Assembly (NCBI RefSeq): GCF_005406125.1
Contig: NZ_BIXZ01000007.1
Span: 1-64,000, forward strand
DNA from: Haloarcula mannanilytica
Lineage (GTDB): Archaea; Halobacteriota; Halobacteria; Halobacteriales; Haloarculaceae
DNA length: 64,000 nt
Reading direction: 5' to 3'
This document shows positions 30,974-62,315 of this stretch, piece by piece. The number at the start of each line of letters is the position of its first letter. The first letter of the stretch is position 1. Made by a program: the position numbers and the translations under genes. The notes beneath the pieces are model-generated. The model was not told the origin of the DNA and ran no database searches. It saw only the letters and a program-made list of their open reading frames with translations.

Positions 30974-31606
30974 ATGGATTCACGGGAACAAGAGCCTGCG
31001 CCCACACAGGACACTGCGACCCAACCGACAAACAGCTTTGACGAAGAAAAGGCACGACGCGGCGCGCGCCTTCTGCTTGAAGCCGCTGGCCGCGATCCCG
31101 ATTCGACGGGCCTGTCGGATACGTGGAGCCGACGCGTCCCGGAAATGCTTGAAACGTTGACCGAAGGGTCACGGTCCGAGTCCAAGCCGGTAATGCGGAC
31201 CTTCGAGTCGGAGACTGACGGACTGATCGTCAAGACGGGGATCCCGCTTCAAAGCATGTGCGAGCATCACATGCTTCCGTTTCAGGGAGTCGCCCACGTG
31301 GCGTACAGGCCGGGCGAAGAAATGGTTGGCCTGTCGAAGCTTATCCGGTACGTCCGGTGGCAGTCGCGCCAGTTGACGACACAGGAGACGCTCACACGGG
31401 ACATCGCAGTCGGTCTGGCTGAGGAACTCGACGCACACGGAGTGGCCGTCGAAGTGACGGCGACGCACATGTGCGAGGTAATGCGAGGCATCGAAACGGA
31501 GACTGAAACGACCACCAGGGAACGCGTCGGAACGATCGGCGAGGCCGACCGCACACAGTTCAGAGAGTCAATCCGACGGCACGCCGGCGGACCCAGTGAC
31601 CGCTGA
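30974..31606 (+). CDS. folE: GTP cyclohydrolase I
   Basis: This 210-residue enzyme converts GTP to dihydroneopterin triphosphate, the first step to pterins and folates. The zinc and catalytic residues are present: C96, H98 and H99 in MCEHHMLPF, and H165 and C167 in THMCEVMRGIE. The ATG at 30974 gives the usual family length, and a T-rich TATA-like element at about 30943-30949 fits a leaderless start. The gene opens the THF-related half of the window and may supply folate to the C1 enzymes encoded nearby. It is separated from them by about 400 bp and is probably its own transcript. Confidence 0.9.
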   Translation: MDSREQEPAPTQDTATQPTNSFDEEKARRGARLLLEAAGRDPDSTGLSDTWSRRVPEMLETLTEGSRSESKPVMRTFESETDGLIVKTGIPLQSMCEHHMLPFQGVAHVAYRPGEEMVGLSKLIRYVRWQSRQLTTQETLTRDIAVGLAEELDAHGVAVEVTATHMCEVMRGIETETETTTRERVGTIGEADRTQFRESIRRHAGGPSDR

Positions 31607-32014
31607 GTACCAGCCACTGAATCTCGGTTGGCGGAGTTGCCGGTCCGAGTGATCTGTTCGTTACATCGTTTCTATCGTCAGCCAACTGTTTGCCTTCGTC
31701 GGCAGTTCAAAACTCAAATTATTAGATATTCAATAGTTTGAGTGTGCGATTCTGGTAGTATCAGCTACAGAACACGAACTTGTGGCCGTAGGCCTGGCTA
31801 GCGTTCGTCTGGGGTTTCGGCGTTGCGAATTCTTCCAGGTAGCGGCCACCGATGGGTGTCAAGCGGACCGGGAATACTTAAATCACCTCAGAACTGTGGA
31901 GTCTGCTTCATTCTGGAATCACGCCACCTTCAAGACGTACGATACGATGTTGAGAGCTATTAGCACGAGAGTAGAGCGCACGGTTCGAGACGCCAGCACA
32001 CGGGTGAGACTGCA
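31607..32014. promoter_or_regulatory. Upstream region of the first FAD-GcvT gene
   Basis: No gene is supported in these 408 bases; a 78-codon frame overlapping the next gene has poor composition. A 32-bp inverted repeat lies at 31712-31743 (listed separately). A TATA-like ATACTTAAAT at about 31874-31883 would give a leader of roughly 110 nt before the ATG at 32015. Confidence 0.35.
31712..31743. promoter_or_regulatory. Inverted repeat, possible operator for the dimethylglycine dehydrogenase-like operon
   Basis: ACTCAAATTATT at 31712-31723 pairs with AATAGTTTGAGT at 31732-31743, 11 of 12 positions, with an 8-nt spacer. The symmetry suits a dimeric regulator. It lies about 130 bp upstream of the probable TATA element. 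A transcription-termination role for folE, whose stop is 105 nt upstream, is possible but there is no stable GC stem. Confidence 0.35.
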
Positions 32015-34549
32015 ATGAGTTCGGACTCGCTCCCGTCACAGGTCAGTACAGCAATCATCGGTGGCGGTATCGTCGGGAACAGTCTCGCGTATCACCTCGC
32101 CCGAATGGGACGAGATGACATCGCAATCGTAGACAAGGGACCGCTACCCGACCCTGGAGGTTCGACGGGTCACGCCTCGAACTTCCTGATGCCGGTCGAG
32201 CACTCGAAGGAGATGACCAATCTCACCCAGCGGAGCATCGAGCAGTACAAAGACATGGACACGTTCACCAACAGCGGCGGTATCGAGGTCGCTCGAACCG
32301 ACGAGCGCGTCGAGGAATTGAAACGGCGTGTCCAGTCGGCCAAGGCGTGGGGTGAACCGGCGGAGCTGTTGACCCCCGAGGAAGTCGAGGATCTCGTCCC
32401 GTACGTCAACACCGACCTCATCAAAGCCGGGTTCTACAGTACCGGAGCAGGCACCTGTGATCCGCTCCGAGCCGGCGAAGTGATGCGAGCGCGGGCAGAC
32501 GAGTACACCGACGGCGGACTGCACGTCTCGCCCAACACCGAAGTGCTCGACCTCCACGTCGAGAACGGATCGATACAGGCGGTCGAGACTGACCGCGGGA
32601 CTGTCACGGCCGATGAGGTGGTCATCGCGGCCGGGCTCTGGAGTCCGAAAATCGCCGAGATGGCCGGCGTCGACATCCCACTCACGCCGGCAGTCCACCA
32701 GATGGTCAGCGTCGGCCCGATCTCCTTCTTCGAGGACTACGAGGGTGAGATCTCGTTCCCGGTCGTTCGTGACATGGACACGCAGATGTACGAGCGCCAG
32801 CACGGAAACGACCTCGAAGTGGGCTCGTATCAGCACCGGCCGATACTCTGGGATGTCGAGGACATCCCGTCCATCGACGAAGCGCCGCTGTCGCCGACAC
32901 AGCCACCGCTGACCGAGGACGCCTTCGAGCAGTCGATGGCCGACGCGCTGGAGATCGTGCCGGAACTCCTCGACGACCCCGAAGCCGGTATCCGCCACGA
33001 AATCGACGGCTTGCTCTCCCAGACGCCCGACGGGGCGCCGCTTCTGGGACCACTGCAAGATGTCGACGGGCTGTGGTCCTGTGCCGCGGTCTGGATTAAG
33101 GAGGCCCCGGCCATCGGCGAGGCAGTCGCCCAGTGGATGACGCGTGGCTGGTCAGATATCGACCTCCACGGGGCCGACGTGAACCGGTTCTACGAGTACG
33201 GGAACTCCCGCTCGTTCGTCAAAGATCGGGCCAGCGAAGGCTTTCAGAAGATATACGACATCGTCCACCCGGCCGAGCAGTACCAGTCTGCGAGGGAACT
33301 CCGGACGAGCCCGTTCTACGAGAAGCAGGCGGACCTCGACGCGGAGTTCTTCGAGGCAGCCGGCTGGGAACGGCCACAGTGGTACGAGTCAAACAGCGAC
33401 CTGCTGGACCGGTACGAGGACGAACTCGCCGAGTTCCAGCGACCGAACGAGTGGGACTCGCGGTGGTGGTCGCCGATTATCCTCGCCGAACATCTCCACA
33501 CCCGCGAACACGTGTCGATGATCGGCGACATGGGCTTCAGCATATTCGACTTCCGCGGGTCGGATGTCGTTGACTACCTCGAACGGATGGCCGTGGGCCG
33601 AGTCGATGTCGAGGTCGGAAAGACCGTTTACACCCCGATACTCGCCGAGAACGGTGGCTTCGTCTCGGACTTGACCATCGCTCGCCTCGGTCCCGAACAT
33701 TACCGGGTCGTCACCGGCGGCGCGGCAGGCGGGTCCGACCGAGCCTGGTTCGGCGACCACATCCCGGACGACGCCGACGTGACGATGATCGACCGGTCTG
33801 AATCGCTGTGTACGCTGGGCGTCTGGGGACCGAACGCCCGCGATGTGGTCGACAGCGTCACCGAGGAAGACATGTCCCATGACGCGTTCGAGCCGTACAC
33901 GGCACAGAAAATCACGGTCGGCGAGGTTGACGCCTGGGCGATGCGACTCTCCTACATCGGCGAACAGGGCTGGGAGATCTACGCCCCGATGGGCCAGGGT
34001 CGCCGCCTCTGGGACGTGCTGTGGGAAGCCGGACAGGATCACAACGTCCGACCGGCCGGCATGGGCGTCTACGGAACGACCGGACGGCTCGAAAAGGGGT
34101 ACCGGCTGTTCGGCCATGAGCTGGAACTGGAGTACAACCCCGCAGAGGCCGGGCTGACGTTCCACGGCGTCAAAGATGCTGATTTCATCGGCAAGGAGGC
34201 CTACGCCGAGGCGATTGACGAGGAGAACACCGCCACGCTGTGTACGCTGTCCGTCGACGACCACGCGCCCGAGGGCGGCGAGCGCCGCTTCATGCTCGGT
34301 AACGAACCGGTTCTCGACGAGAACGGGGATGTCCTGGTCGACGACGAAGGCCGTCGGTCCTACGTGACCAGCGCCGGCACCGGCCCGAGCGTCGGGAAAC
34401 ACCTCCTCATGGCGTACCTGCCGCAGTCCCACGCCGAGGAGGGGAAGCGCCTCCAGGTCGAGTACATGGGCCAGCAGTATCCGGTGACGGTCGAAGTCGT
34501 CGGGAGCCGCCCGCTGTTCGACCCGGAGAACGACCGCATCAGGAGCTAG
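32015..34549 (+). CDS. FAD oxidoreductase with fused GcvT domain, dimethylglycine/sarcosine dehydrogenase type (copy 1)
   Basis: This 844-residue protein has the N-terminal Rossmann FAD motif AIIGGGIVGNSLAYHLAR (about 13-30). H53 in GGSTGHASN matches the histidine that binds FAD covalently in mammalian dimethylglycine and sarcosine dehydrogenases. A DAO domain reaches about residue 370, then an FAO_M segment, and a GcvT plus GcvT-C folate-binding half at about 430-840. The family oxidises an N-methyl group, gives electrons to ETF and the methylene unit to THF. It is followed 43 nt later by etfB and etfA on the same strand. The segment after H53 (SNFLMPV) differs from the APGIMFQ of the other two copies, suggesting another substrate. 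Confidence 0.87.
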   Translation: MSSDSLPSQVSTAIIGGGIVGNSLAYHLARMGRDDIAIVDKGPLPDPGGSTGHASNFLMPVEHSKEMTNLTQRSIEQYKDMDTFTNSGGIEVARTDERVEELKRRVQSAKAWGEPAELLTPEEVEDLVPYVNTDLIKAGFYSTGAGTCDPLRAGEVMRARADEYTDGGLHVSPNTEVLDLHVENGSIQAVETDRGTVTADEVVIAAGLWSPKIAEMAGVDIPLTPAVHQMVSVGPISFFEDYEGEISFPVVRDMDTQMYERQHGNDLEVGSYQHRPILWDVEDIPSIDEAPLSPTQPPLTEDAFEQSMADALEIVPELLDDPEAGIRHEIDGLLSQTPDGAPLLGPLQDVDGLWSCAAVWIKEAPAIGEAVAQWMTRGWSDIDLHGADVNRFYEYGNSRSFVKDRASEGFQKIYDIVHPAEQYQSARELRTSPFYEKQADLDAEFFEAAGWERPQWYESNSDLLDRYEDELAEFQRPNEWDSRWWSPIILAEHLHTREHVSMIGDMGFSIFDFRGSDVVDYLERMAVGRVDVEVGKTVYTPILAENGGFVSDLTIARLGPEHYRVVTGGAAGGSDRAWFGDHIPDDADVTMIDRSESLCTLGVWGPNARDVVDSVTEEDMSHDAFEPYTAQKITVGEVDAWAMRLSYIGEQGWEIYAPMGQGRRLWDVLWEAGQDHNVRPAGMGVYGTTGRLEKGYRLFGHELELEYNPAEAGLTFHGVKDADFIGKEAYAEAIDEENTATLCTLSVDDHAPEGGERRFMLGNEPVLDENGDVLVDDEGRRSYVTSAGTGPSVGKHLLMAYLPQSHAEEGKRLQVEYMGQQYPVTVEVVGSRPLFDPENDRIRS

Positions 34550-34592: not shown

Positions 34593-35363
34593 ATGGACAC
34601 CGTAGCTTGCATCAAGCGCGTGCCGGACACCGGCGCGAAACTCACGCTGACCGACGACGAACAGCACATAGACACGAGCCATCTGGGGTTCACGATATCG
34701 CCCCACGAGGAGTGCGCAATCGAGGAGGCGATCCAGGTGGCCGACGACCACGACGGCACGGCCACAGTGCTGTCGCTCGGCCCGGCAGACGCGGATGAAC
34801 AGCTCCGGACAGGGCTCGCAATGACAGCCGACGAGGCGACGCTACTGGAAACCGACGGGGCGGAATGGCGGCCCCGCGAAACGGCGGCCGCCCTCGCGGA
34901 CGCCCTGAGTGGTGACGCCGACGATCCTGACTTCGATCTCTGCCTGTTCGGCAACGAGTCGGCCGACGTAGCGAACCACCAGGTCGGGATTCGCGTCGCA
35001 GAACAGTTGGATATCCCGTTCGTCGCGGGGGTGACGGATCTGACGATTGCGGATGGGAAAGCCGTTGCCGAGCGCGACGTGACCGGCGGGACCGAGGTGT
35101 ACGAACTCGATCTCCCGGCGGCCGTCGGCGTGAAGGAAGGAATGAACGAACCCCGCTACGCCTCGATGCGTGCCAAGATGCAGGCGCGCAAGCAGTCAAT
35201 CGAGCGGCAGGATCCGGTCGCCGGCGAGTTCGACGGCGCTATCGAGAAAGTCAAGTTGGAAGCCCCGGAGAGCACGGACGGCGCAGCCGAGGTGCTCGGC
35301 GAGGGGACGGACGCCGTGCCTGCGGTCATCGACCTGCTCCGAGACGACCTGGAGGTGGTCTAA
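34593..35363 (+). CDS. etfB: Electron transfer flavoprotein beta subunit
   Basis: This is the 256-residue ETF beta subunit, with typical opening DTVACIKRVPDTGAKL and the signature region GVTDLTIADGKAVAERDVTGGTE followed by LPAAVGVKEGMNEPRYASM (about 175-195). It binds AMP and, with EtfA, accepts electrons from flavin dehydrogenases. It lies between copy 1 of the FAD-GcvT dehydrogenase and etfA, which begins 2 nt after its stop. A DgcB-like Fe-S protein encoded at 37548-39719 is the probable next acceptor. Confidence 0.92.
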   Translation: MDTVACIKRVPDTGAKLTLTDDEQHIDTSHLGFTISPHEECAIEEAIQVADDHDGTATVLSLGPADADEQLRTGLAMTADEATLLETDGAEWRPRETAAALADALSGDADDPDFDLCLFGNESADVANHQVGIRVAEQLDIPFVAGVTDLTIADGKAVAERDVTGGTEVYELDLPAAVGVKEGMNEPRYASMRAKMQARKQSIERQDPVAGEFDGAIEKVKLEAPESTDGAAEVLGEGTDAVPAVIDLLRDDLEVV

Positions 35364-35365: not shown

Positions 35366-36328
35366 GTGATACTGAGTTTCGTCGAACACGCTGGCGGGAG
35401 CCCCGACGAGGCCTCGCTAGAGGCGCTCACGCTGGCCCGAGAACTGGCGACGGCGACCGATGCGTCGCTCGAAGCCGTCGCGTTCGGCGCTGAAGCGGCG
35501 GCGCTCGGGGAGTCTCTCGGTGCCTACGGCGTCGAGACGGTCCACCGGGTCGCCGACGAGCGACTAGACACGTACGCGCCCGAGGCCTGGGCGGAGAGCA
35601 TCGCCCAGTTGGTCGACGACCTCGACCCAGAGGCAGTCGTCGCTCCGGGGACCGACCGCGGACAGGAGGTGCTGGCCCACGTCGGAGCCAAACGCGACCT
35701 GCCGATGGCGGCAAACTGCCTCGATGTCGAGCCAAGCGATGTGTACGAACTGTCGCGCCAGCGGTGGGGCGGCAGCCTCGTCGAACACGCACGCCTGGAC
35801 GCCGACACGAAACTGCTGACCGCGGCGGCACACGAGTTCTCGCCGGAAACGGCTTCCGAAGCAGCCGAGACTTCTGTCCAGCCGTTCGAGCCGGCGCTCG
35901 ACGAAAGCGCGTTTCGGGTCAGTGTCGACCGCGTCGAAGAGTCCGACGAAACCGGTGTCTCGCTCGGTGAGGCCCGCGTCGTCGTCGGTGGCGGCCGCGG
36001 CGTCGGTGGCGGGGAGGACTACGACAAACTGGAGACACTGGCGGGGAGCCTCGGTGGAACTGTCGGCGCATCGCGGGCCGCCGTCAACGAGGGCTGGCGA
36101 CCACACGATGACCAGATTGGACAGACAGGCACGAAAATTAGCCCGGACCTCTACGTCGCCTGTGGTATCAGCGGTGCCGTGCAGCACATGGTGGGCTGTA
36201 AGGGTGCGGACAACATCCTCGCAATCAACACCGACCCGGAGGCGGCCATCATGCAGAAGGCCGACTACGCCGTCGTCGGCGACTTGCACGAGGTCGTTCC
36301 GGAGCTAAACGACGCGCTGGACGACTAG
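35366..36328 (+). CDS. etfA: Electron transfer flavoprotein alpha subunit
   Basis: This is the 320-residue ETF alpha subunit. The C-terminal FAD-binding part (about 190-315) contains VVGGGRGVGGGEDYDKL and LYVACGISGAVQHMVGCKGA followed by INTDPEAAIMQKADYAVVGD, all family signatures. The GTG at 35366 is the only sensible start, 2 nt after the etfB stop. It carries electrons from dimethylglycine/sarcosine-type dehydrogenases to a membrane acceptor. The gene ends the operon; a convergent cupin gene follows. Confidence 0.92.
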   Translation: MILSFVEHAGGSPDEASLEALTLARELATATDASLEAVAFGAEAAALGESLGAYGVETVHRVADERLDTYAPEAWAESIAQLVDDLDPEAVVAPGTDRGQEVLAHVGAKRDLPMAANCLDVEPSDVYELSRQRWGGSLVEHARLDADTKLLTAAAHEFSPETASEAAETSVQPFEPALDESAFRVSVDRVEESDETGVSLGEARVVVGGGRGVGGGEDYDKLETLAGSLGGTVGASRAAVNEGWRPHDDQIGQTGTKISPDLYVACGISGAVQHMVGCKGADNILAINTDPEAAIMQKADYAVVGDLHEVVPELNDALDD

Positions 36329-36918: not shown

Positions 36919-37512
36919 ATGACGTTCGCGAACCAGCCGCTCGGCGAATTCCTCGACGACGTTGCCTCGGGACAGGTAACTCCCAGCGGCGGTGCGGTCG
37001 CGGCCGTCGGCGGGGCAATGGGTGCGGCGCTCTGTGAGATGGTCTGTATTCACACTCTGGGCACGGATCTGTCTGAAAGCGAGGCAGGTGAGCTACGGGA
37101 GGTCAGTGACGCACTGACCGACCACCGGGAACGACTGCTCGACCTCGCTGACGAGGACGCGGCAGCGGTCGATGCGGTCGGGGCCGCGTTCGAGACCGGT
37201 GATGACACCCAGATTCAGGCGGCCGCGAAACGCTCGACAGCGGTCCCACTGGAGGCGGCTGAGGTCTGTCTTGCAGTCCTTGAGCACGCTCGAACGGTCA
37301 CTGCGAAGGGAACGCCCGTCGCCGTCCCCGACGCGGCTGTTGGGGCACTGCTTGCACTGGCGGCTCTGCAGGCGTCGGTCTCGACTGTTCGGGCCAATCT
37401 CGACATGATAGACGACGAATCGGTTGTGGCAGACCTGTCCCGGCGGGCAGACGAGGCAGAAGCGGCCGGCGAAGCGGCGCTCGACGAAGCGATCACAAAC
37501 GCGGACCGCTGA
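36919..37512 (+). CDS. Cyclodeaminase/cyclohydrolase family protein (methenyl-THF cyclohydrolase, FchA type)
   Basis: This 197-residue helical protein matches the formiminotransferase-cyclodeaminase C-terminal family. LGEFLDDVASGQVTPSGGAVAAVGGAMGAALCEMV at about 8-42 holds the conserved P-S-G-G-x-x-A loop. In FchA-type proteins this family converts 5,10-methenyl-THF to 10-formyl-THF; in histidine degradation it deaminates formimino-THF. The neighbouring formate-THF ligase and dehydrogenase genes favour the cyclohydrolase role. Alternative: cyclodeaminase for histidine or glycine-reductase-type metabolism. Confidence 0.8.
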   Translation: MTFANQPLGEFLDDVASGQVTPSGGAVAAVGGAMGAALCEMVCIHTLGTDLSESEAGELREVSDALTDHRERLLDLADEDAAAVDAVGAAFETGDDTQIQAAAKRSTAVPLEAAEVCLAVLEHARTVTAKGTPVAVPDAAVGALLALAALQASVSTVRANLDMIDDESVVADLSRRADEAEAAGEAALDEAITNADR

Positions 37513-37547: not shown

Positions 37548-39719
37548 CTACCCGTCGGCCGGTCGTTGCATGAGCGATTCGACGCTGTCGGACTGCTCCT
37601 CGACCGCTTCGACGAGCAGTTCGGCCACGTCCACGATCTCGATGTCGTCCTCGTAGCCGCCGGTCTTGCGGCCGTCCTCGTACATCGTCAGGCACATCGG
37701 ACAGGCCACAACGAATTTCTCGACCGCATCGCCGGCAGCGGTGTCCTGTAAGGCTTCCCGTAACCGTTCCTCACTCGGCTTCGGTTCGTCGTCGAAGTCC
37801 AGCCAGAGACCGCCCCCACCGCCGCCACAACAGAACGAATCGTCCCTGTTGCGGGGCATCTCGACGAGGTCACAGCCGGTCGCCTCGATCAGGTCCCGCG
37901 GCGCTTCGTACTCGTCGTTGTACCGGCCGAGATGACAGGGGTCGTGGTACGTGACCGTGTCGTCCAGTTCCGTCCCGGAGAGACCGAGCGCCCCGGATGT
38001 CACCAAGTCCTCGACGACTTGCGTCCAGTGGAACACGGGCGCACCATCCCAGGAGCCGTCGACTGGTGTGTCCATCATCGGATCGTCCTCGAACTTCCCG
38101 AAGTCCACCTCGGGGTACTCGTTTTTGAACGTGTTGTAGGAATGGGGGTCCGTACAGACGATTTTGTCGAACTCACAGTCTTCGAACGTCTCGACGTGGT
38201 GGCTAGCCTGCTGCAGGAAGAGGAACTCCTCGCCGGCGCGTCGGATGTCGTTCCCGTCGTACTGTTCGTCGTCATAGAGGATCCCGTACTCCACGTCGGC
38301 GTGGTCGAACAGCGTCGCCAGCGACCGCGCAACAGCCTTGTTGCGCTCGTCGAAGCTCGGGTAATCGCCGACGTACCAGAGGTATTCGACCTCGGTTTCG
38401 CGGGCGTCCGTGACATCGAACTCCAGTTCCGATGTCCATGCCCCGCGGTCGCGCTGTGGGTTCCCGAAGGTGTTGCCGTCCTGCATCACATTCTGGAACG
38501 TGTCCTGTAGGTTTGTGTCGACCTCGCCCTCGTCGACCAGCTGCCGGTTCAGCCGCGTGAACGACTTCAGATGCTCGACATCCACCGGACAGGCGTCCAT
38601 ACAGGCCATACAGGCCATGCACGACTCCATTGTCCGACTATCGATAACGCTCGTCCCGCCATCAGCGACAATCGGGACCGACTCGGCACCCGCGTTCCGG
38701 GCCTCACGGTACCCCTTGAGATCGAGGATCACGTTACGCGGGTCGAGGTCGCGGCCGGAGGCGTTGGCCGGACAGGCCGACGAACAGCGCCCGCACTTGG
38801 TGCAGGCGTCCTGATCGAGGCGGTCCTTCCACGTGAAATCATCTATCGAGGTCGCGTTCGTCGCGTCCAGGTCCGACGGGATACCGGGGAGTCGTCGGCC
38901 TGCGTCGTCGTCGCTTGCGACGACGTTGGCGAACGAGGCGAGCATGTGAAACGGCTTCCCCTGCGGGATCGCTGCGACGAACACGAGCGCAAGCAGCGAA
39001 TGCGACCACCAGATGACTGGGTACACTGTCGCTGCGAGTTGTGGCGTCACGCCAGCGCCTTCGAGCACGATTGCAAGTCCCCAGCCGACGAAACTGACGG
39101 TCTCGAAGCTGGGGAACCCCTGTCCCAGAATACGGATCCCCTCGGTGAGGTAGCCCCCGACACCGAGGAGAAACAGGGTCCACAGAAAGAGGTCGTCTTC
39201 GAGGCCAGTGTGCCGGCCCAGGAGTCGGTCGGTTCGAGCGCCGTATCGACGATAGATTGCGACGCCGAGACCGACAACGAACAGCAACCCCATGGCGTCG
39301 ACGACAAAAGAGTACGAGAGGTAGAACTGTCCCACGAAGAACGAATCGCCGGTCAGCGGTCGGTAGAGGTCCATGTCGATACCCAGAATCGTCGTGGCGA
39401 TGAGCAGCGTCAGAAATCCCCAGAGGATCATCGCATGCATCGCTCCGGCGACGAGATCACCCTCGAAGAGCGGTCGATTCGAAAGCACGGCCTTTGCGGC
39501 ATCGACCACCCGACCCGGCAGTTCGTCGAGTCGGGAAAGCTCGTCCGGCCCGCCGGCGAGATACTGCTGTACTCGCCGATAGCTACTCACGAGGAAAACA
39601 GCGATTGCCAGGGCGGCGAGGTAGTAGAAGATTGCTTTCTGTATCGGCCCGATACGCCAGAACGTCGGCCGTGTCACCTCATCGGTTGCCTGGAGTAGTA
39701 GCACGTTGTGTGGTATCAT
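37548..39719 (-). CDS. Membrane-bound (Fe-S)-binding/CCG-domain oxidoreductase, DgcB-like
   Basis: This 723-residue protein has about six membrane helices in residues 20-275, similar to nitrate-reductase gamma/HdrE-type cytochrome domains. Two [4Fe-4S] motifs follow (CTKCGRCSSACP and CMACMACMDACP, about 310-390). The heterodisulfide-reductase-like half includes one full cysteine-rich set (YHDPCHLGRY then SFCCGGGGGG, about 595-645). The first CCG repeat is degenerate, with no CCG in its expected place. The architecture matches DgcB of bacterial dimethylglycine catabolism, which works with DgcA and ETF. It probably passes electrons from ETF to the quinone pool (inference from family and neighbours). 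Confidence 0.82.
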   Translation of the reverse strand: MIPHNVLLLQATDEVTRPTFWRIGPIQKAIFYYLAALAIAVFLVSSYRRVQQYLAGGPDELSRLDELPGRVVDAAKAVLSNRPLFEGDLVAGAMHAMILWGFLTLLIATTILGIDMDLYRPLTGDSFFVGQFYLSYSFVVDAMGLLFVVGLGVAIYRRYGARTDRLLGRHTGLEDDLFLWTLFLLGVGGYLTEGIRILGQGFPSFETVSFVGWGLAIVLEGAGVTPQLAATVYPVIWWSHSLLALVFVAAIPQGKPFHMLASFANVVASDDDAGRRLPGIPSDLDATNATSIDDFTWKDRLDQDACTKCGRCSSACPANASGRDLDPRNVILDLKGYREARNAGAESVPIVADGGTSVIDSRTMESCMACMACMDACPVDVEHLKSFTRLNRQLVDEGEVDTNLQDTFQNVMQDGNTFGNPQRDRGAWTSELEFDVTDARETEVEYLWYVGDYPSFDERNKAVARSLATLFDHADVEYGILYDDEQYDGNDIRRAGEEFLFLQQASHHVETFEDCEFDKIVCTDPHSYNTFKNEYPEVDFGKFEDDPMMDTPVDGSWDGAPVFHWTQVVEDLVTSGALGLSGTELDDTVTYHDPCHLGRYNDEYEAPRDLIEATGCDLVEMPRNRDDSFCCGGGGGGLWLDFDDEPKPSEERLREALQDTAAGDAVEKFVVACPMCLTMYEDGRKTGGYEDDIEIVDVAELLVEAVEEQSDSVESLMQRPADG

Positions 39720-43022: not shown

Positions 43023-43117
43023 ACGATGTTTCGTTGGGCGGTCGCAAAAAGTTCCGCGCCTCCGTGATCCGACCGATTGGCGATACATTAATCAGGCCGC
43101 CGCCGACCAGTTATGGT

Positions 43118-54057: not shown

Positions 54058-54438
54058 TCAGACAGGCCGGAGGTGGTCGGCGCGTGGTTCCCAGAGCGAG
54101 CCGCTCATACGCAGTTCGTACACTTCGCTCAGCGTGTCCCCGACGGTCCAGCCCTGTTTACTCATCGCGGCGGCGAGAACCCCCAGCGGGACGCCGCTCT
54201 CGAAGTAGTCGTCCAGCGCCCGGAGGACAGCGTCGATACTGTCAGCGTCCGGGGCCTCCGTGACTGCTGGATGGTCCGCGAACTCCCATTCGAGATCCGT
54301 GTCCAGCAGTTCCTGCTGGCGTCGATAGAACGCAATTACCTCGTTCGCCGACGACGCCTCCACGCGAGCACCTGTCTCGGTGGATCGAGCGACGAACGGT
54401 ACGTCTTCCCGCTGGCCCGTCCGTGACACCGAAGTCAC
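54058..54438 (-). CDS. 126-aa protein of unknown function, coupled to the Rieske oxygenase gene
   Basis: This soluble protein overlaps the Rieske oxygenase stop codon by 4 nt, so the two are translated together. The N-terminal 30 residues are polar. A core at about 32-120 (ANEVIAFYRRQQELLDTDLEWEF, then DADSIDAVLRALDDYFESG and TVGDTLSEVYELRMSGSLW) looks mostly helical. No cysteine or metal motif is seen, so it is not an Fe-S reductase, and it does not resemble the NTF2-like small subunits of ring-hydroxylating dioxygenases to my eye. Its role may be as a second subunit, chaperone or regulator of the oxygenase. Confidence 0.7.
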   Translation of the reverse strand: MTSVSRTGQREDVPFVARSTETGARVEASSANEVIAFYRRQQELLDTDLEWEFADHPAVTEAPDADSIDAVLRALDDYFESGVPLGVLAAAMSKQGWTVGDTLSEVYELRMSGSLWEPRADHLRPV

Positions 54439-55574
54439 GCTTCGTAGGCCTCCTGTGCGAGTCGATGCAGTTTGTGGACGGTGTGTTCGTTCGGTCCCAG
54501 TTGCGCCTGGGCAAGCGCTCCGGACTGCAGTCCTTCGTACTGGCGTTCGACGAGTTCGAAGTCTTCCTCCTGCAGCTGGCGGCTCGTCTGGACGAACTCC
54601 TGTTCCGCGTCAGTCATCTCCGCGGAACTGAAGTAGTAGTCAGCGATCAACTGGAACCGCCCCTCGTCGATCGGGTCGATAATGTACGTCCCGTACCCGT
54701 CGGCTGTGCCGTACATGTTCACCGTGAAGTTCGGCCAGAAGTAGTAGAACTTCGCCTCTTTTTCCTCGTGGATTCGCAGTTCGTCGTCGACATCCTCGTC
54801 GTGGGTGTAGTGGAGAATCCAGTGGTAGTCGTTGACTTCGAGATTGGACTCGTCGAGTTCGATGTCGGTTATCCAGTCCTGGTGGTTCGCATGACAGTGA
54901 TCGCATTCGGAGTAGTTGCCGGCGAAGGTCTTCCAGTTGCAGTCGACTTCCGACACGTACCGCGCGGCGTGTTCGTACTCTTCCAGGGGCATGTCTTCCA
55001 GCTCCGTTTTCAGCGTCCCCGCCTGCTCGGCTAGGGGCATGGGATCGTCGGCGAAGTTGAGGAAGACAAACGGTCCGATCCGGTCAGTCTGGACCTCGTT
55101 GAGTCCGTTTTCGCTGGCATCCAAACTGCAGACCTCCTCGTCATCCAGGTCCGGGTTGAGCCCCGCCTCCTCGAAGCTCTTGGGTGTACTTTCGAGGTCG
55201 CCGTCCAGGTCGTACGACCACATGTGGTACGGACAGCGGATGCGACCCATGTTTCCCGGGTTGGTCATGGGCGTATCCTCGACCATCTTCGAGCCACGGT
55301 GTGCGCAGACGTTGAAAAACGCGCGTATCTCGTCGTCGTGGTCGCGGACGATAATCACTTGCTTGTCGCCGATCGTTCGCGTGAAGTACGCTCCTGTCTC
55401 CGTAATTGCGTTCGCGTGTCCGGCGTACACCCAGTACTGGCCAAATATTTTCTCTTTTTCGAGTTCATGAATATCTGGGCTTGTGAAATATTCTGCCGGT
55501 AATGCATTCGTTTCATCGGTTATATCGGGACTAACTGCTGCAACTTCGTCATTATTCGCGTTCCACCTTGTCAT
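54435..55574 (-). CDS. Rieske non-haem iron oxygenase, glycine betaine monooxygenase (GbcA)-like
   Basis: This 379-residue alpha subunit has a Rieske [2Fe-2S] site of C90, H92, C114 and H117 (CAHRG, CPYH) and a mononuclear iron site with H226 and H231 in YSECDHCHANH. The third ligand is probably the Asp in EEDFELVERQ near the C-terminus. The layout is that of enzymes that demethylate quaternary amines such as glycine betaine or stachydrine. Neighbours on both sides are dimethylglycine/sarcosine dehydrogenase-like genes, which supports betaine. The start at 55574 (MTRWNANN) is preferred because a TATA-like TTTAAA at about 55632-55638 implies a transcript starting near 55608; 55616 is an alternative. 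The NADH-linked reductase is not in the window. Confidence 0.85.
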   Translation of the reverse strand: MTRWNANNDEVAAVSPDITDETNALPAEYFTSPDIHELEKEKIFGQYWVYAGHANAITETGAYFTRTIGDKQVIIVRDHDDEIRAFFNVCAHRGSKMVEDTPMTNPGNMGRIRCPYHMWSYDLDGDLESTPKSFEEAGLNPDLDDEEVCSLDASENGLNEVQTDRIGPFVFLNFADDPMPLAEQAGTLKTELEDMPLEEYEHAARYVSEVDCNWKTFAGNYSECDHCHANHQDWITDIELDESNLEVNDYHWILHYTHDEDVDDELRIHEEKEAKFYYFWPNFTVNMYGTADGYGTYIIDPIDEGRFQLIADYYFSSAEMTDAEQEFVQTSRQLQEEDFELVERQYEGLQSGALAQAQLGPNEHTVHKLHRLAQEAYEA

Positions 55575-55915
55575 ACGATTACCTATCCGCTCGGTTATCA
55601 CATCACCGTTCTCCACACATAGTACACCTGTTTAAATGATGGTCGGAGAGAACATAGTAACAATTGAAATGGAGTACACACAGTTCGTACCGGCGTCGTG
55701 TGATTCGCTGCCTCTGACTTGCATACCTACGTAGCGGTATGTCATTTCAAATGACACGATATCGGTAATATAAATGGCCAGCAGTCACAGGTTCGGAAAA
55801 ACAGCAGGCAAACACCGACGGTCAGACCCACGTTCCTAAACGTGCCATTTGAGGCACGTGCAATCACGGCCGCGCTTCCCGATTCGACAGCCAGCGAACG
55901 GTGTGTCCGGTAGTG
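55575..55915. promoter_or_regulatory. Regulatory region of the Rieske oxygenase gene with a perfect palindrome
   Basis: No gene lies in this spacer. TGTCATTTCAAATGACA at 55740-55756 is a perfect 8-bp palindrome with a single central base, about 100 bp upstream of the TATA-like element at 55632-55638. It is a plausible operator for a dimeric regulator of the demethylation genes. A further hairpin lies at 55840-55859. Confidence 0.45.
55840..55859 (-). terminator. GC hairpin downstream of the third FAD-GcvT gene
   Basis: ACGTGCC at 55840-55846 pairs with GGCACGT at 55853-55859 with a 6-nt loop, 57 nt beyond the stop of the gene that ends at 55916. It may mark the 3' end of that transcript and insulate the Rieske promoter. 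No strong T run follows directly. Confidence 0.4.
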
Positions 55916-58489
55916 TCAGGAGACCAGCGGTTCCTCGCGGACGGTCGCCTCGTAGCGTTCACCCTCGTAGAGGATTTCGACGCTGGTTCCCGGTTCGGCG
56001 TACTCGGGCGGTAGATAGGTGTAGGCGACACACGCGCCTTCGGTGTAGCCGTATTCGGCGCTGTGGAGATACCCGATGGTCTCGTCGCCGTCGAGGACTG
56101 GCTTGTTGTCAAGCACAACGGCGTCCTCGTCGTCCAGGGTCAGGCACGCGACTTTGTGGTCGATGTTGTCGCCGTCCGCGGCCGCCGCGACTGCCTCCTT
56201 GCCGATGAAGTCAGTCTCGAGATCGACGGCCCAGCCGAGGCCGGCCTCGTATGGGTTGTGCTCCGTGTGGAGGTCTTTCCCCCAGAGGCGGAACCCCTTC
56301 TCGATTCGCAGGGAGTCCAGCGCGCCGTTTCCGTACGGGCGGATGCCGTACTCCTCGCCGGCCTCCATGATGTGCTCCCAGAGGCGTTCGCCGTACTCCG
56401 AGGGCGTGTAGAACTCCCAGCCGAGTTCGCCCGCGTAGGAGACCCGCAGTGCGGTCACGGGAATGTTTTTCACGAAGAACTGCTGGCTCGTGAAGAACGG
56501 GAAGGCGTCGTCCGAGAGGTCAACGTCGGTGACCTTCGAGAGGACCTTCCGGGCGTTCGGCCCGGTACAGACCATCGCCGCCAGGCTTGAGGTCACGTCG
56601 TTGACGACCACGTCTTCGGGGGACTGCTCGCGCACCCACGCGACGTGGTTGTTCCCGACTTCGCGGCCGGTCGTCAGCAAGAGATAGCGGTCCTCGTCGG
56701 TCCGGGTGACGGTGATGTCGGCCCGGACACCGCCGCCCTCGTTGCACATCAGCGTGTACTTCACGTCGCCCACGTCGATGTCCATGTCGTTCGTACAGAG
56801 GTACTGGATGAACTCGCCGGCGTCGCTCCCGATTACCTCCATCTTGTTGAACGAAGTCATGTCGTGGAGGCCGACGTTCTCCCGGACGTTCAGCGCCTCA
56901 GCACCCTCGATGGGTGACCAGTACTTCGCTTCCCAGCCCTCGCGGTCGGGAATCTGGTCGCCATACTCCGCCAGCAGGTCGGCGTTGGACTCGAACCATT
57001 GTGGCTCCTCCCAGCCGGCCTCGGCCCACAGTTCGGCGTCGTACTTCTTGTGGGTGTGGTACATCGGGGTCCGGCGGATGTCTCGCTGCTTGTCCGTCCA
57101 CACCCACTTCGGGTGCATGATGTTGTAGACGATGCGGTACTCCTCACCGCCGATATCACGGGCGAAGTCCCAACTCCCCTCGTGCTCGTCGAATCGGTTC
57201 ACATCACAGTGGGCGAGGTCGATGGGGCCGTCAGGCAATCGTGGCACGCCGTGCTCCATCCACTCCGCGAGGGCCTTGCCGGCACCGCCGGCGTGGGTGA
57301 CCCAAATAGCGGCCGCCGTCCAGAGGCCGTCGTACTCCTGGACTGGCCCCATCACGGGGAGCCCGTTGGGCGACTCCGCAAACATGCCGTTGTACTTGTG
57401 TTCGAGTTCTTTGCCGGCCGTCGCGGGCAGGAGTTCGTCGCTGGCCTGTCGGGGCGCTTTGTCCGGTCGGTCCGGGTGGGTCGCGTTGTCCATGTGGTAG
57501 TCGGTGAACTCGTGGACAGACCCCTGCTCGCCGTCGGGGTCGTTCCCACCGAGTTCCATCGGATCAGGCACGATTGGCTCGTGGTTGTACGAGCCGATCC
57601 CGTAGGCGTCCCCGTGGTTCCGGTAGTACATCGCGTTGTCCTGGTCGCGGAGAATCGGCCGGTCGGGGCCTACGAGGAGCCGCTTTGCCTTCTCTCCGGA
57701 GACGTTCTCGTAGTTCTCGAACAGCGGGTGGTCGGTGATGTCGACCGCGCTGTCGGCCAGTTCCTCAAGCGACTCCGTCATCGTGTACTGGTGTTCGACC
57801 GGTGTCACTGGGAGGTGAACGTCCAGTTTCTCGCCGAGTTGTCGAGCCCAGATGTTCGTTGCGACGACGACCTCGTTGCACTCGATGGTGCCGTTTTCCG
57901 TGACAACGGATTGTACTTCGCCGTCTTTCGTCTCCACGTCCTCGGTGCGCGTGTGTGGGACGAACTTAGCCCCTCTGTCCATCGCTTCGCGGGCCAGTGC
58001 GTCACACGCGACGACGCCCGACACCTGGCCATCCGTCGGCGAATAGTAGCCGCCCTCGATCTGGTCGGCGTCCACGAGCGGGAGGTGCTCGGTGACTTCC
58101 TCGGGCGAGAGGAGTTGTGGGTCCTCGATGCCCCACGCCTCGGCATATTCGACGCGGCGCTGGAGGAAGTCCATGCGTTCCTCGCTGCGTGCGACTTCGA
58201 TGCCGCCCGTTTCGGAGTACGCTTGGGTACCGTCCGCTCCTTCAAGATCGGAGTACAGTCGGCGGCTGTAGTCCGCGAACTGGCTGAGGACCTTCGGCTC
58301 TGCGGTCTGGAACATGATCCCGGGGGCGTGCGTCGACGATCCACCCGTGGTAGGCATCGGTCCCTGATCGACCACGACAACGTCCTCGCGGCCGAGCTCA
58401 GTCAACTGGTATGCGATGTTGCAGCCGACGATTCCGGCACCGACGATGACGGTGTCGGCCTGAGTCGGCAGGCTATCGGTAGGCTCCAT
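55916..58489 (-). CDS. FAD oxidoreductase with fused GcvT domain, dimethylglycine/sarcosine dehydrogenase type (copy 3)
   Basis: This 857-residue paralogue has the Rossmann motif VIVGAGIVGCNIAYQLTE at about 14-31. H54 in GGSSTHAPGIMF is the presumed covalent-FAD histidine. A DAO domain is followed by GcvT and GcvT-C halves (SFNKMEVIGSDAGEFIQYL, then YTLMCNEGGGVRADITVTRT). It should oxidise dimethylglycine or sarcosine and load THF. It is upstream of, and on the same strand as, the Rieske oxygenase, but the 340-bp spacer with its own regulatory signs argues for separate transcription. A TATA-like ATATATAAC lies near 58552-58560. Confidence 0.87.
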   Translation of the reverse strand: MEPTDSLPTQADTVIVGAGIVGCNIAYQLTELGREDVVVVDQGPMPTTGGSSTHAPGIMFQTAEPKVLSQFADYSRRLYSDLEGADGTQAYSETGGIEVARSEERMDFLQRRVEYAEAWGIEDPQLLSPEEVTEHLPLVDADQIEGGYYSPTDGQVSGVVACDALAREAMDRGAKFVPHTRTEDVETKDGEVQSVVTENGTIECNEVVVATNIWARQLGEKLDVHLPVTPVEHQYTMTESLEELADSAVDITDHPLFENYENVSGEKAKRLLVGPDRPILRDQDNAMYYRNHGDAYGIGSYNHEPIVPDPMELGGNDPDGEQGSVHEFTDYHMDNATHPDRPDKAPRQASDELLPATAGKELEHKYNGMFAESPNGLPVMGPVQEYDGLWTAAAIWVTHAGGAGKALAEWMEHGVPRLPDGPIDLAHCDVNRFDEHEGSWDFARDIGGEEYRIVYNIMHPKWVWTDKQRDIRRTPMYHTHKKYDAELWAEAGWEEPQWFESNADLLAEYGDQIPDREGWEAKYWSPIEGAEALNVRENVGLHDMTSFNKMEVIGSDAGEFIQYLCTNDMDIDVGDVKYTLMCNEGGGVRADITVTRTDEDRYLLLTTGREVGNNHVAWVREQSPEDVVVNDVTSSLAAMVCTGPNARKVLSKVTDVDLSDDAFPFFTSQQFFVKNIPVTALRVSYAGELGWEFYTPSEYGERLWEHIMEAGEEYGIRPYGNGALDSLRIEKGFRLWGKDLHTEHNPYEAGLGWAVDLETDFIGKEAVAAAADGDNIDHKVACLTLDDEDAVVLDNKPVLDGDETIGYLHSAEYGYTEGACVAYTYLPPEYAEPGTSVEILYEGERYEATVREEPLVS

Positions 58490-59010: not shown

Positions 59011-59967
59011 ATGGAATACGCGCCCGTCACGCACACGGCTACTGATCGACGGCTCGGCGAACTGCCGTCGGGCCGGGACGTGTCCGTGACTGTCCATCGA
59101 TACGTCGGTGGGGCTGGACCGACGGTGTACATCCAAGCTGCACAACATGGCATCGAACTCAACGGGCCAGCAGCGTTACGACGACTCCACGATCATCTGA
59201 TCGACGCGTCGGTCGCGGGGACTGTGATTGTTGTTCCGGTGGTGAACCAGCTCGCCTTTGACCACCGGTCGTACATGACTCCCGGCGAGTACGACGTGAT
59301 GAACCCGAATCTGAACCGTGTCTGGCCGGGAGACGAATCCGGCAGCTTACAGGAACAGTTAGCGGCTCGCCTGTGGGCGCTTGTCGAAGACGCTGATGCG
59401 GCGGTCGACCTCCACACCGGCACGGCAGACATGCTGGCACACGTCAGGTGTCGAGCGGGTGACCCGGACGCCGAGCGCCTCGCCGAAGCGTTCGGAACCG
59501 ACTACAGGCTCATCGACGGCACCGAAGACGCTAGCGACGATGAGCCCGATGGGACCTTCCGTGCCGCGACTGCGGCCGCCGGTATTCCGGTCATCACTGC
59601 AGAGCTGTCGAACAGCCGCCGGATCGCACTGGGTGCGGTCAAAGACGGTGTCGATGGCCTACAGAACCTCCTGCGTGAGCGGGCTGTCCTCCCGGCAGAG
59701 GCGGATCTGCAGGCCGACCAGACAGTGCTCCGAAACGACGCGGACCCGGTTACTGCAACGGCATCGGGGTTGTTCGAGTGCCGAACGGATATCGCCATCG
59801 GCGACACTGTCGACGCGTCGGAGCGACTTGGAACCATTTACGACCCGTCCTCATTTGAACAACAACAAGTCGTCTCAGCGACAGAACGAGGCGTGCTATA
59901 TTCGCTCGCCAGAGAGTCCGTCGTCGTGAAAGGTGAGCGTCTCGCCGGTATCGCGACACCGCGCTGA
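59011..59967 (+). CDS. Succinylglutamate desuccinylase/aspartoacylase-family zinc hydrolase
   Basis: This 318-residue protein has the M14-like AstE/AspA fold. The zinc motif is QHGIELNG (H46, E49), the substrate loop NPNLNRVWPG is at about 93-102, and the third zinc histidine is in AVDLHTG (about 131-137). A glutamate in TAELSN is the probable catalytic base region. The family removes acyl groups from N-acyl amino acids, including N-acetyl-diaminobutyrate in ectoine breakdown. The substrate here is not determined. Proximity to the betaine genes could mean a wider osmolyte-catabolism role (inference). Confidence 0.82.
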   Translation: MEYAPVTHTATDRRLGELPSGRDVSVTVHRYVGGAGPTVYIQAAQHGIELNGPAALRRLHDHLIDASVAGTVIVVPVVNQLAFDHRSYMTPGEYDVMNPNLNRVWPGDESGSLQEQLAARLWALVEDADAAVDLHTGTADMLAHVRCRAGDPDAERLAEAFGTDYRLIDGTEDASDDEPDGTFRAATAAAGIPVITAELSNSRRIALGAVKDGVDGLQNLLRERAVLPAEADLQADQTVLRNDADPVTATASGLFECRTDIAIGDTVDASERLGTIYDPSSFEQQQVVSATERGVLYSLARESVVVKGERLAGIATPR

Positions 59968-60102: not shown

Positions 60103-61290
60103 ATGGGACTTCATACGGCCTTCACGGCGCTCGCTGAGGTAATCGATGCATACGAATCCCGCGGCCGGTCCGTCCGGACCGTCGAAGCATCGCCAGCCGA
60201 GACAGATGGCGCAGTCCTCGACGTGACGGTCTCGATGCCGGTCTCAGTCTGTTCTGGCGAAGGTGACGGGCTCACGCCGAAGAGCGCGATGCTGACCGAC
60301 AGCGGGGATCTGAGAGTCGAATTCTCACCAGCAGCCACTGAGCTGCCCTCAACTGCCGCTGCATCGCTGTCGGTCGGCGACGCCTCGGCCGCTGTTACCG
60401 ACGATGGGTTGCTTCTGACGGTCAACCTGAGAATCGATGCCACGGCAGCAGCAGACGAGGCAGCTAGCGTCGATTCCGGGCCCGAACAGGGTGAAACCGA
60501 TGCATCGGCAGCGATCAGTTCCGTGAGTTCTCCCGACACTGATAGCAATAATTCGCTCCCCGTTTCGGATGTCGCGGACACGGAGGCCGCGCCCGCTGAC
60601 GATGACGCGTCACAAGCACGCGCACAATCAGACAACACGGCGACGGACGATACACAGTCTGAGCCTGCGTCCGAGGGTGAATCGGACCCTTTCGCCGCTG
60701 TTCGCGATGATTCCGTGCCGCCATACGAGGACACTGACTACCTGCAAGCCCTCTATGACGAATGTGACAATTTCAAAGAGATCGCAGAGCAGATCCAGAT
60801 GGACGTATCGTCCGAGACCGTCCGCCGGTACATGATAGAGGCCGATATTCATGTCCCGAACACGTACAACACGTCCAGTGACGACGTGGAATCGGCGACC
60901 GAATCAGGCAAACCGGACGACGTGGCGAGCCAGTCCGGGGCCGACGGCGAAGACGACCAGGTCAGTGTGGCTGATCCCGTCGCAGCCGAGTCACCGGGGC
61001 CCGGGACCGACTCTGTCGGGGACCTCCCTGACGACCAACTGGTCACCGACGGACTTGGACTCCCGGCCGATGTGCAACTCCGCGACGTTGCGGAGGCGGT
61101 CGTTGACTCGGATACGGTGTACGAGGTCCAGCGATGCCTGAGCCTCAATCGGTCCCAGACTCGGAACCTGCTTGAGGAGCTCAATCTGTTAGATCTCGTC
61201 TTGTGTCGGCTCACCGACGAGCCGGACCATGCTGTTTCTTACGGGACCGTGGCTAGCCGAATCCGGCAGTGTACGCCCCACAGCGCCTGA
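60103..61290 (+). CDS. Putative HTH-containing regulatory protein, unknown family
   Basis: This 395-residue protein has three parts. The N-terminal region (1-110) is beta-rich, with GLHTAFTALAEVIDAYESRG and a repeated LTPKSAMLTDSGDLRVEFSP. The middle (about 115-205) is acidic, Ser/Ala-rich and probably disordered. A helix-turn-helix follows at about 207-250 (YLQALYDECDNFKEIAEQIQMDVSSETVRRYMIEA), and a second helical region lies at about 305-385. A TATA element GTTTATAAATG at 60035-60044 gives a short leader. It precedes metF on the same strand and may regulate the C1 or transport genes. I do not recognise the family with confidence. Confidence 0.6.
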   Translation: MGLHTAFTALAEVIDAYESRGRSVRTVEASPAETDGAVLDVTVSMPVSVCSGEGDGLTPKSAMLTDSGDLRVEFSPAATELPSTAAASLSVGDASAAVTDDGLLLTVNLRIDATAAADEAASVDSGPEQGETDASAAISSVSSPDTDSNNSLPVSDVADTEAAPADDDASQARAQSDNTATDDTQSEPASEGESDPFAAVRDDSVPPYEDTDYLQALYDECDNFKEIAEQIQMDVSSETVRRYMIEADIHVPNTYNTSSDDVESATESGKPDDVASQSGADGEDDQVSVADPVAAESPGPGTDSVGDLPDDQLVTDGLGLPADVQLRDVAEAVVDSDTVYEVQRCLSLNRSQTRNLLEELNLLDLVLCRLTDEPDHAVSYGTVASRIRQCTPHSA

Positions 61291-61454
61291 TAGGGATTCT
61301 TGTAGCGATTTACCGGTACGCGCCAACCCCGGGGGCGGCGCTATCCGGAAATAATCTACAATAATCACTATGAGAGATGGGGCGGTTATTTATAAATGTG
61401 TTCGATGCCCCACCCACAGTACAAAGTACGGTTATACCATATCTCTGGTAACTC

Positions 61455-62315
61455 ATGGCCCTCGGAACACGCGCTGTCTCAGACCCACAAGGTGTCCAGA
61501 CGCTGCTGACGAGCGCTCGGTTCGAACTGATGCCGTTCGAGAGCTTCGACGAGGAGATCACCCACCTCCCCGACGACGCCACCATCGCGATCACGACATC
61601 ACCCCAACTCGGTATCGAGCGGACCGTCGAAAAGACGGAGGAAGCCGCGGCGATGGGATACGATGTCGTCCCCCATATTGCGGCCCGCTACGTGGAAGAT
61701 CGGGCGCAACTCGAAGGGATCGCCGAGCGACTGAAACAGGCAGGCATCACGGATATCTTCGTCCCCGGTGGCGACCGCGAGGAACCGGCCGGCGAGTTCG
61801 AGTCGGCACACGATCTACTCACGGTGCTTGCTGATACCGAGTATTCCTTCGAGGAAGTCGGAATCACCGGCTACCCTGAGGGCCACGATTTCATCGACGA
61901 TGAGACTTTGGCGGAGTCGATGGCCCAGAAAGCGCCGTACGCGACGTACATCGTCACGCAACTCTGCTACGACCCGGATACCGTGCTAGAGTGGGTCGAA
62001 GACATCCGGGCTCGCGGTATCGAACTCCCGGTCGAAATCGGTATCCCGGGTGTGATGAACTACCAGCGCCTGATGCAGATCTCCCAAAAGGTCGGGGTCG
62101 GTGACTCGATAAAGTTCCTCAGGAAAACGACGGGTATTCTCGGCTTCGTCAAGCAACTGGTCGGGTCTCGCGGGACGTACGAACCCGATGACCTCATCGA
62201 CGGGCTCGCGCCGTACGTCGACGACGACGAGTACAAGATCCGCGGCGTCCACATCTACACCTTCAATCAGACGCCGGACACCGAGAAATGGCGGCACAAG
62301 CGCCTAGAGAGCTAG
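61455..62315 (+). CDS. Methylenetetrahydrofolate reductase-family flavoprotein
   Basis: This 286-residue TIM-barrel protein has the MetF pattern. FELMPFESFDEEI and then ITTSPQLGIE form the opening; MGYDVVPHIAARYVEDRAQLEGIAERL matches the V-P-H-I-A/T-A-R segment. DIFVPGGDREEPAG equals the L-R-G-D loop region, and VGITGYPEGHDF and YIVTQLCYDP (conserved Q) follow. It would reduce 5,10-methylene-THF to 5-methyl-THF or act in reverse. It is placed with an HTH protein upstream and LivH/LivM permeases downstream. TATA at about 61386-61396 gives a roughly 38-nt leader. Confidence 0.85.
   Translation: MALGTRAVSDPQGVQTLLTSARFELMPFESFDEEITHLPDDATIAITTSPQLGIERTVEKTEEAAAMGYDVVPHIAARYVEDRAQLEGIAERLKQAGITDIFVPGGDREEPAGEFESAHDLLTVLADTEYSFEEVGITGYPEGHDFIDDETLAESMAQKAPYATYIVTQLCYDPDTVLEWVEDIRARGIELPVEIGIPGVMNYQRLMQISQKVGVGDSIKFLRKTTGILGFVKQLVGSRGTYEPDDLIDGLAPYVDDDEYKIRGVHIYTFNQTPDTEKWRHKRLES

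Follow-up and report, generated by a model that had tools for sequence, protein, structure and literature searches.

Among the compatible solutes of halophiles, glycine betaine is a common one, and most discussion of haloarchaea treats them as its importers. In bacteria such as Pseudomonas, Chromohalobacter and Vibrio natriegens, its degradation is encoded in clusters that contain gbcA or gbcAB, dgcAB-fixAB, soxBDAG, glyA or glyA1, sdaB and purU (PMC12093977). For archaea, Anderson et al. 2011 note in one passage that four haloarchaea carry dimethylglycine-oxidase-like genes close to BCCT carriers, and suggest that betaine, dimethylglycine or sarcosine is used (PMC3102087); tetrahydrofolate (THF)-linked C1 metabolism to formate has been proposed for Halodesulfurarchaeum (PMC5437934). 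Here we analysed a stretch of 64,000 nucleotides from Haloarcula mannanilytica (the window), which forms the first 64 kb of the 165-kb contig C7 in a 4.2-Mb genome of 33 contigs, and focused on an island of genes at 30974-62315 that continues on C7 past the window. The observed gene identities, the catalytic residues of its FAD-GcvT enzymes, synteny and co-occurrence make it likely that this island encodes a folate-linked pathway that degrades glycine betaine and the intermediates of its demethylation.

The island and the bacterial clusters share a chemical logic: a Rieske first step, demethylation through flavin, electron transfer flavoprotein (ETF) and Fe-S protein, THF, GlyA with a serine deaminase, and a BCCT carrier. 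It differs from them in using FAD-GcvT enzymes of the dimethylglycine oxidase type for DgcA and SoxBDAG and Fhs for PurU, in having no GbcB, in its folate-synthesis genes, in an alternative first step formed by a DmdA-like GcvT protein and an MTHFR-family protein, and in its archaeal megaplasmid setting. The pairs of Anderson et al. 2011 are like the island in gene kind, organisms and proposed substrates, whereas the passage describing them is without the Rieske gene, the DmdA-like/MTHFR module and the serine/pyruvate or formate branch that the island has (PMC3102087). An earlier sequence-only reading of this DNA had held an organised archaeal degradation locus to be noteworthy; the organised locus was confirmed, although its outline had already been proposed in that same passage. 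In open-licence papers we found no description of haloarchaeal Rieske or DmdA-like genes, of an exchange of first-step modules, or of a growth study. What is new is the modular first step, which appears undescribed; that such a cluster exists is not.

The gene set is found in the same order on H. marismortui pNG700, on H. hispanica pHH400 and in Haloarcula sp. JP-L23. The cluster lies on megaplasmids or plasmids in these three and in H. sinaiiensis, and is partly kept on plasmids of Natronococcus, Halarchaeum and Haloterrigena and at more than 20 further loci. Because this synteny is conserved across haloarchaeal families, mostly on megaplasmids, a chance grouping can be excluded. The island is thus real and conserved, it is probably catabolic and, by analogy with its relatives, the H. 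mannanilytica copy is probably carried on a megaplasmid. The Rieske protein of the window shares 94% identity with its Haloarcula japonica counterpart and 88-89% with those of H. vallismortis and H. marismortui. Halarchaeum and Priestia loci combine FAD-GcvT with Rieske, BCCT and a monomeric sarcosine-oxidase-like gene. The Priestia locus (L061), on a P. megaterium plasmid from a hypersaline lake, matches that of Halarchaeum sp. CBA1220 (L054) in composition, with Rieske, BCCT, SolA-like and FAD-dependent oxidoreductase genes.

Families were called by profile searches against Pfam and NCBIfam (Table 1). Every family named in the sequence-only reading was recovered at 30974-62315, together with four further island genes that it had not named: the ammonia-lyase, a 126-aa protein, the AstE-like deacylase and the HTH-like protein. 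The last has no Pfam or NCBIfam match and is likely the cluster regulator. The FolE start given earlier (30974) is an in-frame ATG inside the tabulated frame. FolD and GlyA, for which a genome search had been proposed, are both encoded on C7 just past the window, which rules out the idea that the island is without them. Since genes for GlyA, FolD, PabAB, the DmdA-like protein and formate dehydrogenase continue on this contig, the pathway is more complete than the window shows. UrtABCDE-like transporter genes and an unassigned 424-aa gene separate the MTHFR-family gene from GlyA; this UrtABCDE-like stretch is absent in H. marismortui and H. hispanica.

From this gene set we infer the substrates, the direction of flux, the electron donors and a first step with two modules. 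Betaine would be taken up by the BCCT carrier. Its first methyl group would be removed either by the Rieske oxygenase, using O2 and releasing formaldehyde, or by the DmdA-like GcvT protein, which would move the methyl to THF, with the MTHFR-family protein oxidising methyl-THF to methylene-THF. The FAD-GcvT enzymes would take dimethylglycine to sarcosine and sarcosine to glycine, passing the carbon to THF as methylene-THF. Electrons from FADT1 may reach the quinone pool by way of the adjacent ETF and the membrane Fe-S protein, and the acceptor for FADT2 and FADT3 may be O2 or ETF. Methylene-THF and glycine would then form serine (GlyA) and pyruvate (IlvA-like deaminase); alternatively, methylene-THF would be converted to formyl-THF (FolD/FchA) and on to formate with a gain of ATP (Fhs), the formate going to CO2 through formate dehydrogenase. 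FolE, PabAB, FolCP and dihydrofolate reductase would supply the cofactor. Of the earlier proposal that the island takes betaine to glycine and methyl groups to formate, the THF-linked catabolism of N-methyl amines, with carrier, demethylases, C1 oxidation to formate and folate supply, is supported; the GbcA assignment, the generality of the ETF/Fe-S branch and the role given to MetF are not.

The three FAD-GcvT enzymes (FADT1, FADT2 and FADT3) each combine DAO, FAO_M, GCV_T and GCV_T_C in one chain and match dimethylglycine oxidase from end to end (483-609 bits). In a MAFFT alignment, His48, His225, Tyr259 and Asp552 (Arthrobacter globiformis numbering), which we take to be the FAD-linking, active-site and folate-side residues of that oxidase, are kept in all three. 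The three FAD-GcvT proteins named earlier were thus confirmed as family members by domains and residues alike. They resemble the A. globiformis dimethylglycine oxidase and the mitochondrial dimethylglycine dehydrogenase in architecture and in the four residues tested; the island differs in having three paralogues, one of them paired with ETF. FADT2 and FADT3 share 50% identity with one another and 37% with FADT1. Judged by their sequences, all three belong to the dimethylglycine oxidase/dehydrogenase family and are predicted to act on dimethylglycine or sarcosine.

FADT1 and the ETF genes form a separate, optional unit, since the H. hispanica cluster has them and the H. marismortui cluster does not. 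The membrane Fe-S protein combines a CCG domain with two 4Fe-4S motifs, four hydrophobic segments and a membrane N-terminus, as expected of a CCG-type ETF:quinone oxidoreductase. Its best PDB match (251 bits) was 9ojn, an 'iron-sulfur-binding reductase' that is presumably of this kind. Each of nine other haloarchaeal genomes has a copy, including one genome without the island, and H. mannanilytica has a second on contig C2. This rules out a pathway-specific protein: the island holds one more copy of a protein that is general among haloarchaea. The ETF and the 'DgcB-like' Fe-S protein of the sequence-only reading are thus both present, although they are tied to FADT1 only and are not part of the H. 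marismortui cluster.

The chief new finding came from a survey of 242 Halobacteria genomes that were at least 90% complete, in which FAD-GcvT genomes were defined by the FADT3 query at E<=1e-150, so that some FADT1-only genomes were missed. The Rieske gene was found in 34 genomes, the DmdA-like GcvT gene in 53 and FAD-GcvT in 72. FAD-GcvT was present in all 34 Rieske genomes (Fisher p 1e-21), with the genes no more than 30 kb apart in 32. Similarly, it was present in 48 of the 53 DmdA-like genomes (p 8e-27), again within 30 kb in 45 of the 48; some of the five others are FADT1-only, and G017 among them has FADT1. Within the FAD-GcvT set, 23 genomes had the Rieske gene only, 37 the DmdA-like gene only, 11 both and 1 neither (7, 10, 5 and 0 by genus). 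Within this set the two genes are anti-correlated, with p 1e-9 when genomes are counted and 0.005 when genera are; the latter is the fairer figure because genomes are not independent. All 53 DmdA-like genomes and two others carried an MTHFR-family gene, whereas the 23 Rieske-only genomes had none (p 1e-51); in 40 of the 53, this gene and the DmdA-like gene lay no more than 10 kb apart. This pairing fits the DmdA-like module, since a GcvT protein that makes methyl-THF would need a partner to oxidise it, whereas a Rieske demethylase would not. The correlation suggests that Rieske and DmdA-like/MTHFR are two interchangeable modules for the first demethylation of the substrate that we infer. The MetF-family protein of the sequence-only reading is accordingly present as a superfamily member, linked to the DmdA-like methyltransferase past the window and not to the Rieske route.

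In the Rieske protein of the window, the Rieske ligands (CAH...CPYH at 104) and the bridging-Glu motif (NYSECDH at 234) are intact, and both agree with group V, the quaternary ammonium oxygenases. With CntA and other members of this group (PMC7948474) it has the Rieske and Fe motifs, the bridging Glu and Tyr 203 in common; it differs from CntA in forming a haloarchaeal clade of its own, in ECDH for ECYH, and in having an HVO_B0008-family partner instead of a CntB-type reductase. NYSECDH is found in all haloarchaeal copies but a few divergent ones from Natrialbaceae, and four Vb-like references have NNRECYH. In the Rieske tree the haloarchaeal clade is supported (97/91), whereas the deeper forks, at 56/19, do not settle its placement with CntA or with Stc2/GbcA. 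The partner is the 126-aa protein; its start and the Rieske stop codon overlap, and its gene comes next after Rieske in nearly every locus. In both the window and H. marismortui, this pair separates FADT2 from FADT3; H. hispanica has no gene there, and its FADT2 and FADT3 are 216 bases apart. H. hispanica has the DmdA-like gene with no Rieske gene at the locus, and H. marismortui has both. A structural model of the 126-aa protein (pLDDT 88) gave no PDB match at E<=0.001 in a fold search; its best partial matches, all with E >0.9, included winged-helix DNA-binding domains, and the model may possibly contain a winged-helix part. Tandem, diverged Rieske copies, 49-63% identical to that of the window, occur in Natrialbaceae and Halegenticoccus (L019, L020, L021, L026, L027, L029-L031, L053) and possibly act on different substrates.

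Several observations weigh against a betaine pathway. The Rieske protein reaches 142.2 bits over residues 33-256 with the GbcA equivalog NF058607 (cut-off 670). It has, like nearly all haloarchaeal copies, Tyr at CntA position 203, where Tyr marks group Va (carnitine, choline, benzalkonium) and Asn group Vb (glycine betaine, stachydrine) (PMC7948474). The proposed search for a Rieske reductase found none of the GbcB type in the genome; the sole PF00175 protein, on another contig, is a 365-aa frame with no obvious 2Fe-2S domain by eye. Score, Tyr for Asn and the missing partner together rule out GbcA and the earlier 'GbcA-like' label, and the Rieske substrate therefore rests on context. The carrier (515 bits with the best NCBIfam glycine-betaine BCCT, cut-off 650), the FchA-like protein (111.7 bits with NF045657, cut-off 275), the MTHFR-family protein (67.5 bits with the MetF equivalog TIGR00676, cut-off 293.7) and the DmdA-like protein all fall under NCBIfam equivalog cut-offs. 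Coupling to ETF is not general, since H. marismortui has no FADT1-ETF unit at the locus. According to work cited in the passage of Anderson et al. 2011, betaine did not improve the growth of H. walsbyi, and H. utahensis showed no growth (PMC3102087); we found no growth or enzyme data in the open-licence literature for any haloarchaeon with the island.

The Tyr residue, being of the carnitine/choline type, would also suit an island that degrades dimethylglycine and sarcosine, perhaps sarcosine derived from creatinine, with the Rieske oxygenase acting on a choline- or carnitine-like quaternary amine and betaine as one entry point. A betaine-aldehyde-dehydrogenase-like gene at 76.6 kb on C7, with homologues near Rieske in L027 and L032, a 3-keto-acid cleavage enzyme near Rieske in L023 and creatininase-family genes in some clusters point the same way. 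We nevertheless regard this alternative as doubtful, because the Rieske gene keeps so close to FAD-GcvT and replaces DmdA-like/MTHFR across genera, which fits the same step. Moreover, a formaldehyde-dehydrogenase-like gene (346 bits, cut-off 637) lies directly 3' of Rieske in Haloarcula amylovorans (L018), where choline oxidation would not need one, and the tree does not join the haloarchaeal Rieske proteins to CntA with support. A purely biosynthetic role seems improbable. Here the island would supply C1-folate for purines, thymidylate and methionine from formate, glycine and serine, with FAD-GcvT as a minor N-methyl salvage; folate-synthesis and C1 genes do make up a large share of it, and Sorokin et al. 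2017 interpreted a comparable set of genes in haloarchaea as a source of C1 units (PMC5437934). However, H. mannanilytica encodes FolD and GlyA a second time on contig C1, 170 of the 242 genomes have no FAD-GcvT enzymes at the survey threshold, and BCCT carriers, a deaminase and formate dehydrogenase are present, as in a catabolic unit.

The DmdA-like protein has DmdA as its nearest named family and structure: the best family was the dimethylsulfoniopropionate (DMSP) demethylase NF009133 (250.7 bits, cut-off 410) and the best PDB match 3tfh, the P. ubique structure. DmdA makes 5-methyl-THF, as the DmdA-like protein would with an MTHFR-family gene alongside. The protein could thus demethylate DMSP and belong to the island only since both reactions feed methyl groups into THF. 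Besides the score, the DMSP-contact position may argue against this: Trp in P. ubique, it is Phe in all haloarchaeal copies, as in homologues that have been assigned to a non-DmdA clade (PMC7487153), though an annotated Phaeobacter DmdA has Tyr. The DmdA-like protein also keeps the company of N-methyl catabolism genes, with N-demethylating FAD-GcvT genes nearby in 45 of 48 genomes, and no dmdB/C/D-type genes are annotated in the H. hispanica, JP-L23 and H. marismortui clusters. We consider the DMSP role unlikely. Some accessions of the non-DmdA clade appear, on our assumption, to be haloarchaeal.

A corrinoid first step as the general route is ruled out, since MttB-family genes occur in 6 of the 242 genomes and not in that of the window; all six have the DmdA-like gene and none has Rieske. 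In Halomicrococcus the MttB-family gene adjoins the cluster. In a 2.1-Mb genome, L076 (G007:C1:1760000-1779900) brings together MttB-family, MtgA-like methylcorrinoid:THF methyltransferase, AcsV-like activator, AstE-like and MTHFR genes, and is a corrinoid methyl-transfer locus in a haloarchaeon. A small conserved protein beside ETF (window 36387-36764), with no Pfam match, has a 47% identical homologue (L076:7012-7416) next to the MttB-family gene there. Within the betaine pathway, we tentatively propose that the DmdA-like and MTHFR-family proteins may form an O2-independent methyltransferase system from betaine (or another trimethylammonium compound) to THF. This would be a new route, exchanged for an O2-dependent, reductase-less Rieske oxygenase, with a third, corrinoid route of the MttB/MtgA type in a few relatives.

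Table 1 Genes of the island and its continuation on contig C7, numbered from the first letter of the window.
Feature	Position	Strand	Basis and remarks
FolE, GTP cyclohydrolase I (folate synthesis)	30938..31606	+	PF01227 174 bits; NF006826 162.4 bits, cut-off 162
FADT1, FAD-GcvT N-methyl dehydrogenase, ETF-linked	32015..34549	+	DAO+FAO_M+GCV_T+GCV_T_C; A. globiformis dimethylglycine oxidase 483 bits
ETF beta subunit	34593..35363	+	PF01012 110 bits
ETF alpha subunit	35366..36328	+	PF00766 110 bits, PF01012 102 bits
FchA-like methenyl-THF cyclohydrolase (FTCD_C family)	36919..37512	+	PF04961 146 bits, well above cut-off
Membrane Fe-S/CCG oxidoreductase, ETF:quinone oxidoreductase-like	37548..39719	-	Fer4 x2, CCG, 4 TM-like segments
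Fhs, formate-THF ligase	39933..41729	-	NF010030 800.8 bits, above cut-off 652
FolCP, fused folylpolyglutamate synthase/dihydropteroate synthase	43034..45517	+	TIGR01499 321 bits, TIGR01496 311 bits, both above cut-off
BCCT carrier	47040..48800	-	PF02028 597 bits
Universal stress protein	49369..49812	-	PF00582 100 bits; carrier neighbour, order kept in H. hispanica and H. marismortui
Threonine/serine ammonia-lyase (serine to pyruvate)	49904..51151	-	TIGR01127 435.9 bits, above cut-off 378.75; kept in most clusters
FADT2, FAD-GcvT N-methyl oxidase/dehydrogenase	51208..53769	-	dimethylglycine oxidase 1pj5 609 bits over 15-850
126-aa HVO_B0008-family protein	54058..54438	-	PF25215 (HVO_B0008_C) 89 bits
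Rieske oxygenase, quaternary-ammonium type, haloarchaeal clade	54435..55616	-	PF00355+PF00848; CntA 134 bits
FADT3, FAD-GcvT N-methyl oxidase/dehydrogenase	55916..58489	-	dimethylglycine oxidase 1pj5 583 bits
AstE/DoeB-like deacylase, conserved in cluster	59011..59967	+	PF24827 98 bits; recurs in related loci
HTH-like protein, conserved	60103..61290	+	homologues 32-71% identical in most loci
MTHFR-family protein (proposed methyl-THF oxidation)	61455..62315	+	PF02219 55.5 bits, above cut-off 24
UrtABCDE-like ABC transporter genes	62343-69956		in part from reading frames and annotated relatives
GlyA, serine hydroxymethyltransferase	70144-71391		
DmdA-like GcvT protein	71703-73079		
Dihydrofolate reductase	73326-73952		
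HTH_10 regulator	74358-75011		
Betaine-aldehyde-dehydrogenase-like gene	76601-78121		
ProV-like ATPase with CBS domain	83036-84022		
FolD	86750-87700		
PabB/PabA	87921-90040		PabA named from reading frames and annotated relatives
Second BCCT carrier	90062-91918		
NuoF-like and formate dehydrogenase alpha	94610-99612		TIGR01591 822 bits, cut-off 666

Around the island, the GC content falls to 50-57% at 14000-24000 and 28000-32000 of the window, compared with 60-69% in the adjoining gene blocks; these stretches hold many short reading frames and look like plasmid-type or inserted DNA. An operon at 545-9454, with molybdopterin oxidoreductase, Fe-S, nitrate-reductase-delta-like and ethylbenzene-dehydrogenase-gamma-like subunits and a ParA/NUBPL protein, probably encodes an anaerobic respiratory reductase. 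An AlaX-like alanyl-tRNA editing protein is encoded between Fhs and FolCP (41820-43088).

If the island does degrade betaine, an organised and repeatedly exchanged plasmid pathway would make haloarchaea consumers of betaine and its methyl groups in brines. If first steps that depend on O2 and on folate are indeed exchanged for one another, this would identify a so far unassigned GcvT-family demethylase and a Rieske oxygenase that lacks a dedicated reductase.

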